This document shows, one piece after another, positions 19,272 to 49,458 of a DNA stretch of 64,000 nt. The position numbers and the translations under genes were made by a program. The notes under the pieces were generated by a model. It was not told the origin of the DNA, did not search any database, and saw only the letters and a list, made by a program, of their open reading frames with translations. Source of the stretch: an uncultured Verrucomicrobiota bacterium (GTDB lineage: Bacteria > Verrucomicrobiota > Kiritimatiellia > CAIVKH01). The DNA is taken from NCBI GenBank assembly GCA_937872895.1, contig CALMUP010000038.1, positions 1-64,000 on the forward strand. Reading direction: 5' to 3'. Position 1 is the stretch's first letter. Each line of letters opens with the position of its first letter.

Positions 19272-19290
19272 ACGCGCTCTATCGTCTTCA

Positions 19291-19323
19291 TCGTAATCGT
19301 AATCCTACTCGTAATCGTAATCG
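19291..19323. repeat. Short CGTAAT-type tandem repeat
   Basis: Four CGTAAT hexamers in two pairs separated by CCTACT, ending 20 bp upstream of the family 2 glycosyltransferase start. It is low-complexity DNA in an otherwise GC-rich gap. It could change length by slippage, and it lies in the 5' leader of that gene. Confidence 0.5.
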
Positions 19324-19344
19324 CCCGCGCAGAATCTTCGCCGG

Positions 19345-19585
19345 TGTGGATGATACCTGGATTCGTCAGGCCGCTTGGCGTGCGGCCGGATTCACGGCGC
19401 TTTCTGCGTTGGAGCCGCGGGGGCGGACGGGAGTCCAGCCCCCGCGGCTCCGCCTTGAAATCACCGCAAATCCGACCACCCACCCGCTACGTTCTTCGCG
19501 CTTCCAGCGCGAAGAACGTACCTGACGAATCCAGGTGGTCACGCATCGTCTCGCTTCGCTCGCCGATTAAACCAAGACATCATCT
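19345..19585 (+). repeat. Cloverleaf-type structured repeat, copy 1
   Basis: First of three related elements. A 15-bp closing stem (19356-19370 with 19521-19535, perfect) encloses three arms: GGCCGC/GCGGCC (about 19369-19387), a 14-bp perfect stem (19411-19424/19438-19451) and a 15-bp perfect stem with a TCC loop (19488-19502/19506-19520). A conserved tail (19536-19585) contains GTCTCGCTTCGCTCGCCGAT and ends in ATCATC, complementary to the GATGAT near the left end. Arms differ between copies but stay complementary. The element fills most of the 19272-19701 gap between two minus-strand EPS genes. Confidence 0.85.
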
Positions 19586-33145: not shown

Positions 33146-33373
33146 TGGATGATACCTGGATTCTTCGGGCCGCGGAACGGCGGCCGGATTTACCCCGCCT
33201 TCTGCGTTGGAGCAACAGGGGCGGACGGGAGTCCAGCCCCCGCTGCTCCGCCTTGAATTCGGGGCAAATCCGACCACCGCTCCGCTAATCCCGCTTTCAG
33301 CGGGATTACCCGAAGAATCCAGGTGGTCACGCATCGTCTCGCTTCGCTTGCCGATGAAACCAAGACATCATCC
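33146..33373 (+). repeat. Cloverleaf-type structured repeat, copy 2
   Basis: Second copy, same orientation as copies 1 and 3. The closing stem is CCTGGATTCTTCGGG (33155-33169) with CCCGAAGAATCCAGG (33309-33323); three bases differ from copy 1 and all are compensated in the other arm. The B arm is GGCCGC/GCGGCC with a different loop. The C arm (33209-33222/33236-33249) has two A-C mismatches. The D arm is a wholly different but perfect TAATCCCGCT/AGCGGGATTA pair (33286-33295/33299-33308, loop TTC). The rest of the 33090-33501 gap holds small hairpins such as CCCTCCTTCGGAGGG and no gene. Confidence 0.85.
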
Positions 33374-34267: not shown

Positions 34268-35236
34268 ATGGATCAGGAAATCTGGAATGAGCGGTGGCGA
34301 TTGGCCACCTTGAACAGGGACGATATCATGCGCTCCCTGTTCATCGCCTTGGTCATTGGCTGGGTGTTCCTGCTGTTTCACTATCAGGGTAACTCGCTGG
34401 ATGTGAAGGTGTTCGGCAGGTCGGCGCTGGTTTGGATGGTCGAGCGGTGGACCGATGACATCGAGTATGGCGGTGATTATTCCCATGGGTGGTTGATTCC
34501 GGTGCTGTCCTTGTATGTCGTATGGACGCGGCGCAAGGAGTTGGCGGCGGCTCCGAAATCGGTAAGTTATACAGGTCTGGTGCTGGTGGTGGGGTGTCTC
34601 TTGATGCACTGGCTGGGAGCCAAGGCGCAGCAGACCCGGCTTTCGCTGTTCGCGCTGGTCGGGTTGATCTGGACGATTCCCTATTATTTGTATGGGTGGC
34701 AGGTCGCCAAGCGGCTGATCTTTCCGTGTTCCTACCTGATCTTCTGCATTCCGTTCAACTTCCTGGACAGCGTGACCCATCCGTTGAGGATTTTTGCAAC
34801 GGCGGTGGCGTCGTTCCTCTTGAACGGTGTGGGCATCGGGGTTGAGCAGTCGGGTGCGCGCCTGCACTCGTTGTCGCCGGGTGGTTTTGACCTCGATGTG
34901 GCCGATGCCTGCAGCGGCATCCGCTCGTTGATTGCGATCACGGCGCTCACCGCGATCTACGCCAACCTCACCCAGCGGTCCGCGTGGCGGCAGTGGGTCA
35001 TCTTCTTCATGTCCATCCCGCTTGCCCTGATCGGCAATGTGGTGCGTATCTTCACCACCGGGATCGTGGCCGAGGCCTTTGGCACCGACATGGCCATGCA
35101 GTTGTACCACGACTTTTCGGGATTCATCATCTTCATGGTCGTCTTCATATTGTTGATCAGCATCGGCTCGATGTTGGAGCGAGCCTGGCTGGAGGAGAAG
35201 AAACGATGGTGGCTCGGACATCTGCGCACTACCTGA
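34268..35236 (+). CDS. Exosortase (intact catalytic residues)
   Basis: 322 residues, about eight membrane helices, from the ATG at 34268; the upstream frame is open but looks non-coding. It belongs to the exosortase/archaeosortase family, polytopic transpeptidases that process PEP-CTERM-like C-terminal tails. The proposed catalytic residues are visible: Cys215 in ADACSGIR, Arg260 in GNVVR and His281 in YHDFSG. Other family segments are YSHGWLIPVLSLYVVWTRR, AKAQQTRLSL and AKRLIFPCSYLIFCIPFNF. EpsI follows with a 31-bp overlap. The EPS cluster starts nearby on the other strand. No protein with a clear PEP-CTERM tail is encoded in the window. Confidence 0.93.
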   Translation: MDQEIWNERWRLATLNRDDIMRSLFIALVIGWVFLLFHYQGNSLDVKVFGRSALVWMVERWTDDIEYGGDYSHGWLIPVLSLYVVWTRRKELAAAPKSVSYTGLVLVVGCLLMHWLGAKAQQTRLSLFALVGLIWTIPYYLYGWQVAKRLIFPCSYLIFCIPFNFLDSVTHPLRIFATAVASFLLNGVGIGVEQSGARLHSLSPGGFDLDVADACSGIRSLIAITALTAIYANLTQRSAWRQWVIFFMSIPLALIGNVVRIFTTGIVAEAFGTDMAMQLYHDFSGFIIFMVVFILLISIGSMLERAWLEEKKRWWLGHLRTT

Positions 35237-39296: not shown

Positions 39297-39536
39297 TGGA
39301 TGATACCAGGATTCGTCAGGCCGCTTGGCGTGCGGCCGGATTCACGGCGCTTTCTGCGTTGGAGCCGCGGGGGCGGACTAGAGTCCAGCCCCCGCGGCTC
39401 CGCCTTGAAATCACCGCAAATCCGACCACCCGCCCGCTACCTTCATCGCGCTTCCAGCGCGATGAAGGTACCTGACGAATCCTGGTGGTCACGCATCGTC
39501 TCGCTTCGCTCGCCGATCAAACCAGGACATCATCCG
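39297..39536 (+). repeat. Cloverleaf-type structured repeat, copy 3
   Basis: Third copy, same orientation. The closing stem CCAGGATTCGTCAGG (39306-39320) with CCTGACGAATCCTGG (39471-39485) shows one T-to-A change against copy 1 with the matching A-to-T change in the partner arm. The C arm (39361-39374/39388-39401) is identical to copy 1. The D arm (39438-39452/39456-39470) differs from copy 1 at two positions, each compensated. Homology reaches a little further right (a CATTCTCT motif near 39550, cf. TATTCTCT near 19600). The rest of the 39204-39663 gap has a 10-bp inverted repeat (39592-39601/39628-39637) and no gene. Confidence 0.85.
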
Positions 39537-44973: not shown

Positions 44974-45333
44974 TGGATGGCCTTCGACGCGCGCCGTGTG
45001 CATGCCGGAATCGAATGCACCACGGATGGACACCGATGGGGGATGAATGCCATGGGACCGTTCAACACGCCACGCCCTGCATCCGTGTTGATGTCTACTG
45101 CCGACAAGGAAGAACCGCGGATTACGCGGAAAACGCGGATGGGAGCGAGATGAAACGCGTCCGGTCATCGGTTTCCGGGGATACCCCTGCGCCAACAGGC
45201 GTGAACAGATAGAATCTCCATCCACGACATTCGCGGTTCCACCATCTGCATCCGTGTTGATCCGTGTGTATCCGTGGTTCCACCTTCTGAATGCGGTGTT
45301 GATCCTTCACCGCGTTCATCCGGCAGCGATGGA
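44974..45333. repeat. Spacer rich in CACGGAT / CGCGGATT repeats
   Basis: No gene is seen in this 360-bp gap. It has phrases such as ACCACGGATGGACACCGATG (about 45016), AACCGCGGATTACGCGG (about 45114) and, in the opposite orientation, GCATCCGTGTTGATCCGTG and TATCCGTGGTTCCACC (45250-45290). The two orientations make an imperfect inverted arrangement. Similar phrases recur at 49080-49420 and 62568-62600. Confidence 0.65.
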
Positions 45334-48976: not shown

Positions 48977-49458
48977 GGGTCTACCGTAGCACACGAAGGG
49001 GCTGCGCCCAACAGAATGCGCGGGTTCTTGTGCTAGACAGGCGCGGGGACCGTCGCGTTCAACCTGAAAACCGGAATGGAAGAACCGCGGATTCCCCGGA
49101 TATCACCGATGGGAATGACGTTATGAAGCTGCATTGGTTAAAGGGCGGTGCACTGAACCCGAATCCGGACGTTGAAACCACGGATACACACGGATCAGCA
49201 CGGATGTACAAGGGGGCGCGCGGTGTTTGCCGGTGCACGGAAAAAGCTTGGTTTTATCGCGGTGGAAATCATCTTCGGAAACCCGCATCCGAGTGCATCC
49301 GTGTCTATCCGTGGTGAAATCAATATCGGTTTTTGGGCTAAAGCAACGACCTGATGATCAGATACCATGAAGCCATCGGCGAACATCAGCGAGATCCGCG
49401 GTTCCGGCTTCTGAATGCGTGTTCAATGAAGGGCTGTATTGGCCGGTCGTTCGCGGGG
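48977..49458. repeat. Spacer rich in CACGGAT / CGCGGATT repeats
   Basis: No gene is seen in this 482-bp gap. GAACCGCGGATTCCCCGGAT lies near 49082, CCACGGATACACACGGATC near 49179, ATCCGTGTCTATCCGTGG near 49297 in the opposite orientation and GATCCGCGGTTCC near 49393. The forward and inverted blocks flank about 100 bp of unrelated sequence, as at 45010-45300. Confidence 0.65.

Follow-up and report, generated by a model that had tools for sequence, protein, structure and literature searches.

A branched, strand-specific fold dispersed through Verrucomicrobiota genomes as a candidate mobile element

The msDNA-like repeats of Nannocystis and the HEARO/omega RNAs are dispersed structured RNA modules that carry no protein gene of their own. 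REP sequences are short units of 20–65 nt that carry a GT[AG]G or CGTC tag, and compensatory changes have been reported in the spacers of the REPINs (PMC3116915). Bacterial MITEs such as ERIC, NEMIS/Correia, CIR and RUP are small, non-autonomous, intergenic sequences that form long imperfect palindromes; some bacterial MITEs act in mRNA, and some show orientation effects (PMC2229807). In integron attC sites, structure is conserved over sequence and one strand folds; in sedentary integrons this folded (bottom) strand is kept on the leading-strand template and off the lagging-strand template (PMC5371416).

We analyzed a stretch of 64,000 nucleotides (hereafter the window; contig CALMUP010000038.1) from an uncultured Verrucomicrobiota bacterium (Kiritimatiellia; genome G000, 3.87 Mb in 51 contigs), for which an initial annotation made from the letters alone had described a cloverleaf-type element in three copies of the same orientation. 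The three copies are present (Table 1), with the closing arms, branching, conserved loops, tail and GGATGAT/ATCATCC ends that had been noticed, and they belong to a set of thirteen in the genome as a whole, comprising 12 full copies and one mini-copy. Read on the minus strand, the element runs from a GATGATG end through a 5' hairpin region to the first strand of closing stem A (16 bp), then through arm D (about 7–15 bp) into a long interrupted arm, B-C, tipped by CUGGACUCnnGUCCG, and returns through the second stem A strand to ATCATCC. The fold is branched as proposed, but as a three-way Y, the arms first labeled B and C being one long interrupted helix. The changes in stem A are all compensated, as claimed, amounting to one in copy 3 and to two, rather than three, of the 16 pairs in copy 2, and the differing lengths of stem D were correctly described. 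Two unpaired motifs are kept within the element, an internal loop that sets CAAGGC opposite AACGC and the bulged T of the terminal hairpin, and both stay unpaired in copies from at least 14 families. The element measures about 220–240 nt in G000 and is longer in some relatives.

Table 1. Positions in the window of the three element copies and their parts; conserved cores are covariance-model matches.
Feature	Position	Strand	Remarks
Copy 1, end to end	19348-19585	-	GGATGAT...ATCATCT read on + strand
Copy 1, long B-C arm, phylum-wide conserved core (models R1/R2)	19371-19488	-	97.2 bits, E 5e-22
Copy 1, terminal hairpin CTGGACTCCCGTCCG, conserved bulged T and TCNN loop	19424-19438	-	
Copy 1, stem A, 3' arm of structured strand	19355-19370	-	
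Copy 1, stem A, 5' arm of structured strand	19521-19536	-	
Copy 1, arm D hairpin, 15 bp	19489-19520	-	
Copy 1, 5' region of structured strand: hairpin E and end motif GATGATG	19537-19585	-	
Copy 2 of element	33147-33373	-	
Copy 2, conserved B-C core	33170-33286	-	103.2 bits
Copy 2, stem A, one arm	33154-33169	-	partner 33309-33324
Copy 2, arm D hairpin, 10 bp	33287-33308	-	
Copy 3 of element	39298-39535	-	
Copy 3, conserved B-C core	39321-39438	-	99.1 bits
Copy 3, stem A, one arm	39305-39320	-	partner 39471-39486
Copy 3, arm D hairpin, 15 bp	39439-39470	-	

Other repeats occur in the same window. A short run of CGTAATC-like units lies beside copy 1 (19279-19324), and similar units are found near copies in G004, a genome of the same family but another genus. 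A further dispersed family, of the CACGGATACACACGGATCA type, is represented at 45239-45296 and 49159-49216 by a pair of 58-nt inverted repeats that are 81% complementary and 3.9 kb apart.

The copies fold far more stably than chance would allow, and their stems covary strongly. Against dinucleotide shuffles, the minus strand of copy 1, folded as RNA, scores z = -11.8 and its plus strand -9.2; copy 2 folded as DNA also gives z = -11.8. In a within-family alignment of 20 copies, both partners have changed without loss of pairing at 38 of 66 pairs; the double-change cells number 223, as compared to 77 after shuffling and no more than 47 after sliding. Alignment of 39 more distant cores from across the class extends this behavior to 45 of 46 pairs (483 double-change cells versus 149 shuffled and at most 140 slid), although these figures are favored by the fitting of that alignment to the covariance model. 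Compensatory change keeps a branched fold of about 120–190 nt across the class. Covariation had been named at the outset as the decisive test for a selected nucleic-acid structure, whether a structured RNA, a single-strand DNA recombination site or a MITE; its strength here supports such a structure and excludes the alternative that the copies are simply recent duplicates with random stem damage.

Inspection of the mismatches indicates which strand is selected. In stems A, C and D, read on the minus strand in a fixed, strand-neutral register, there are 29 G·T mismatches and a single A·C. A second neutral test, in which each copy was folded with G·U forbidden and single mismatches between Watson-Crick runs were counted, gave 130 G·T versus 15 A·C on the structured strand across 22 genomes; counted by genome, which is the fairer figure because copies inside one genome are not independent, 17 lean in the same direction and one in the opposite. 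Some of the G·T mismatches are kept in 17–18 of 20 copies, and nearly every genome gives the structured strand a lower folding energy than its complement. Because the mismatches on the minus strand of the window are G·T and not A·C, one strand is selected, rather than a symmetric DNA palindrome. Symmetric repair of a palindrome cannot yield this asymmetry, and C-to-T deamination of an exposed strand would be expected to push in the opposite direction wherever the structured strand is the C-rich one. Two marks of a structured RNA, covariation above controls and tolerance of G·U on one strand, are accordingly both found. The outer pairs of the end motif depart from the G·T rule; complementarity between GGATGAT and ATCATCC may therefore mark the ends instead of forming a stem under selection.

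Within G000, the mini-copy (L013) lacks the whole B-C arm, and its stem A continues straight into D. Matches to stem A across the whole genome are confined to the known copies; G000 therefore has no longer element with the same arms, and no autonomous one with the same ends. About ten copies occur in another genus of the family, and both G001, of the same genus, and G004 show an identical architecture with different stem A letters, CTTGCCGCTTCGGG pairing with CCCGAAGCGGCAAG in G004. A search of G001, G002 and G004 for clean empty sites was limited by intergenic divergence, which prevented the ends from being placed. Tandem copies are present at L092 7470-8834 (contig C17 of G000) and at L102 3150-3740 (contig C416 of G004); both pairs have a downstream flank duplicated on the same side, of 119 nt in C17, where it is the start of the downstream gene, and about 115 nt in C416, together with differing 5' end variants. 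A group II intron with a reverse transcriptase (L102 3825-5786) starts about 90 bp from the C416 pair; having been seen at this one locus only, it was rejected as a partner.

Beyond the family, the element is patchy and multi-copy. A covariance model built on the B-C arm (R1) found it in 23 of 346 genomes of the class, in about 14 families, and a model rebuilt from distant cores (R2) in 41 of 388 genomes of the phylum, mostly within the class. Outside the class, genome G487 has five copies that share the internal loop; six other genomes there give weaker R2 matches, one or two each. In-depth searches of four genomes returned 45 matches in G344, 20 in G109, 17 in G032 and 36 in G059; copy numbers are lower bounds because most genomes are drafts. 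Head-to-head pairs of elements about 360–700 bp apart recur in G032 (L225, L256) and occur once in G344 (C1:860772-861467). At the Rfam gathering score, neither the window copies nor 20 related loci matched any family, and a relaxed threshold gave sub-threshold matches only, so a known Rfam family was rejected. Phage, plasmid and viral collections yielded no match (phage and plasmid at BLAST level), and scanning named genomes for the 5'-end pattern gave five matches, with the element absent from the four that were read.

MITE-like ends are found in G059, where nearly identical copies have exact ends, are 393 nt long and bear the 18-bp terminal inverted repeat CAGGGCAGACGCATCTTG at both ends. 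Target duplications of 10 bp match at 10 of 10 positions in three copies, and in a fourth after a 1-bp shift of the end; three further copies match at 7–8 of 10 positions (the chance of at least 8 being 0.2%). The G059 copies are MITEs by their inverted ends and apparent target duplications, and shorter derivatives are present alongside them. Their ends may resemble those of the ISAs1 family. Among the 64 end matches in this draft assembly we recognized no autonomous partner with the same ends, the closely paired matches being separated by no more than about 400 bp and delimiting no recognizable element of kilobase scale. The ends in G000 amount to the 7-bp complementary GGATGAT/ATCATCC, with no target duplication above chance, and none was found in any genome beyond G059.

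No recurrent neighboring protein is linked to the element in the genomes that bear it. Genes of the Y1_Tnp type are present in 12 of 12 element-bearing genomes and in 10 of 12 genomes lacking the element. The RAYT-type transposase that the initial annotation had proposed looking for did not emerge as a linked gene, given that the eight Y1 loci of G000 show no similarity to the element past chance matches of 13–15 nt. G000 also contains two Y1 transposase elements (L085 and L086, about 1403-2420), 95% identical to each other and unrelated to the folded element, whose terminal inverted repeats of about 29 bp place them with the TIR-flanked tyrosine transposases.

In some genomes the orientation of the copies is tied to nucleotide skew. 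Local sequence is C-rich on the structured strand at 36 of 42 copies in G344 and at 14 of 15 in G109, and skew taken from intergenic sequence gives the same result regardless of the direction of neighboring genes. Large contigs of G344 mostly hold copies in one orientation (5/5 in each of C2, C5 and C6), contig concordance being 28/31 after thinning to one copy per 10 kb (p = 0.0004). No orientation pattern is seen in G058, G059 and parts of G032, which have next to no skew. In G000, 11 of 11 copies lie on the C-rich strand, yet along its contigs the sign of the skew switches as gene direction does, and because of this we draw no conclusion about replication for that genome. The placement in G344 and G109 implies a replication-linked constraint, with replication direction taken from GC skew rather than from mapped origins. 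If the leading strand is G-rich, as is usual, the structured strand would be the leading-strand template.

Three explanations fit this body of evidence poorly. The copies might be passive palindromic MITEs whose arms owe their perfect pairing to gene conversion or hairpin-templated repair, the fold having no selected function. Long perfect arms of quite different sequence between copies, the MITE ends in G059 and the ability of template switching to correct palindromes would all suit such an origin, but templated correction is strand-symmetric and removes wobbles, whereas the G·T excess sits on one strand and is partly conserved, and the internal loop and bulge persist unpaired; we regard this account, the repair-perfected MITE of the initial annotation, as improbable on its own. 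Equally improbable is a retroelement RNA that a reverse transcriptase disperses, either retron-like or, through group II intron enzymes, SINE-like. It would draw on the RNA-like fold, on the tandems with their duplicated downstream flanks and differing 5' ends, and on the intron beside the C416 pair; against it, the G059 ends are of DDE type, no reverse transcriptase is linked to the element, and RVT_1 has no match in five element-rich genomes (G344, with 45 copies, G059, G041, G060 and G030), from which it follows that a reverse transcriptase is not required. This absence and the want of a recurrent adjacent gene also led us to reject a retron. Least probable of all is a riboswitch-like leader RNA that regulates the downstream gene in cis. 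As first noted, the window copies do lie upstream of minus-strand genes, although at 113, 58 and 95 bp rather than 57–94 bp (genes called with a simple self-trained model), and 11 of the 13 G000 copies precede a gene whose sense strand is the structured one, most of them by 27–296 bp. This position is a trait of G000 and not of the family, since other genomes are unbiased (21 sense versus 27 antisense), with many G109 copies lying between convergent genes; the downstream genes are unrelated (in the window, those for a glycosyltransferase, a DUF362 protein and a PP-loop protein), and the element is absent at orthologous genes in relatives. Lacking consistency of orientation or gene outside G000, a leader function was rejected. 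An exosortase (EpsH) gene (34328-35236, + strand) adjoins copy 2.

A more serious competitor, to which we attach perhaps a third of the overall weight, is that the fold acts as single-stranded DNA, exposed during replication as a site that either an HUH transposase (Y1/TnpA-REP-like) or an integrase recognizes or recombines, in the manner of REPINs, IS200/IS605 ends or attC. The link between orientation and GC skew in G344 and G109, the Y1_Tnp genes in every element-bearing genome tested, a folded strand held off the lagging-strand template like the attC bottom strands of sedentary integrons (PMC5371416), the conserved bulged T, the G000 copies without target duplication and the strong folding under DNA parameters all speak for it. 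Set against these are the Y1_Tnp genes in 10 of 12 genomes without the element, the Y1 loci of G000 without any piece of it, and the movement of the G059 copies as a DDE-type MITE. The favored strand, moreover, lies on the leading and not the lagging template, the reverse of the active strand of IS608-type elements, and neither the REP guide GT[AG]G nor the attC boxes are conserved: GTGG stands at the opposite-strand foot in only 8 of 13 G000 copies, which excludes a canonical REPIN, no conserved GT[AG]G/CGTC hairpin-foot tag is found in G004, G344, G109 or G345, and an integron attC array was rejected on account of ends that read GGATGAT/ATCATCC, rather than RYYYAAC/GTTRRRY core boxes, and of copies dispersed over many contigs.

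The reading we prefer, and consider about evenly balanced against all others together, is that the window features are copies of an uncatalogued, non-autonomous, protein-free mobile element, and that its core works in single-stranded, folded form. To judge from sequence, that core is more likely RNA than single-stranded DNA, because G·U pairs are abundant and partly conserved, because the unpaired motifs are of a kind that proteins bind, and because one core rides under different transposon ends. The minus strand would thus carry a conserved Y-shaped fold, made up of a 5' hairpin, closing stem A, an optional arm D and the long arm B-C, which would act single-stranded, most likely as an RNA made from this structured strand, and which a protein supplied in trans may bind through the two conserved unpaired motifs. 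Copies would spread by means of borrowed transposition enzymes, putatively of the DDE type in G059, and the skewed orientation could reflect either insertion coupled to replication or loss of the opposite orientation through hairpin-driven deletion. Several observations sit less easily with a mobile RNA-coding element: skew-linked orientation is a DNA-level property that RNA function alone does not predict, G·T wobbles fit single-stranded DNA hairpins too, Y1 transposase genes accompany the element throughout the genomes tested, and target duplications are confined to G059. More tentatively still, and with the balance of probability against it, the element could represent an undescribed, phylum-wide class of mobile elements in which nothing is conserved but a large strand-specific fold (RNA or single-stranded DNA), long kept under several transposon ends, in one orientation relative to replication and with a dedicated protein partner. 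Models R1 and R2 define a searchable family in tens of genomes in which to pursue its function, the choice between RNA and single-stranded DNA, the moving enzyme and the skew-linked orientation.

Comparison with known systems places the element near several of them. Like REPINs and REPs with their RAYTs, it is intergenic, multi-copy, hairpin-forming and, in our reading, mobilized in trans, and the head-to-head pairs of G032 add to the likeness; unlike the far shorter REPs, it is a three-way structure of 220–400 nt with no conserved tag and no link to a RAYT gene, and it has an internal loop conserved across the phylum and one favored strand. It resembles the ERIC, NEMIS/Correia, CIR and RUP MITEs in size class, non-autonomy, intergenic location and imperfect palindromy, but its branched fold is far larger and is conserved over a class and part of a phylum, and it has several unrelated sets of ends, of which those in G059 alone combine classical inverted repeats with target duplications. 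As a dispersed structured module without a protein gene it recalls the msDNA-like repeats of Nannocystis and the HEARO/omega RNAs, from which it differs in having no Rfam match and no linked reverse transcriptase or IscB-type gene. With attC sites it shares conservation of structure over sequence, a single folded strand and, if the leading strand is G-rich, the placement of that strand on the leading-strand template (PMC5371416), whereas its ends have no core boxes and its copies stand singly or in short tandems rather than in a cassette array. Small palindromic bacterial repeats are usually seen as passive DNA; here, a branched fold of one strand is conserved class-wide while the mobile ends around it vary.
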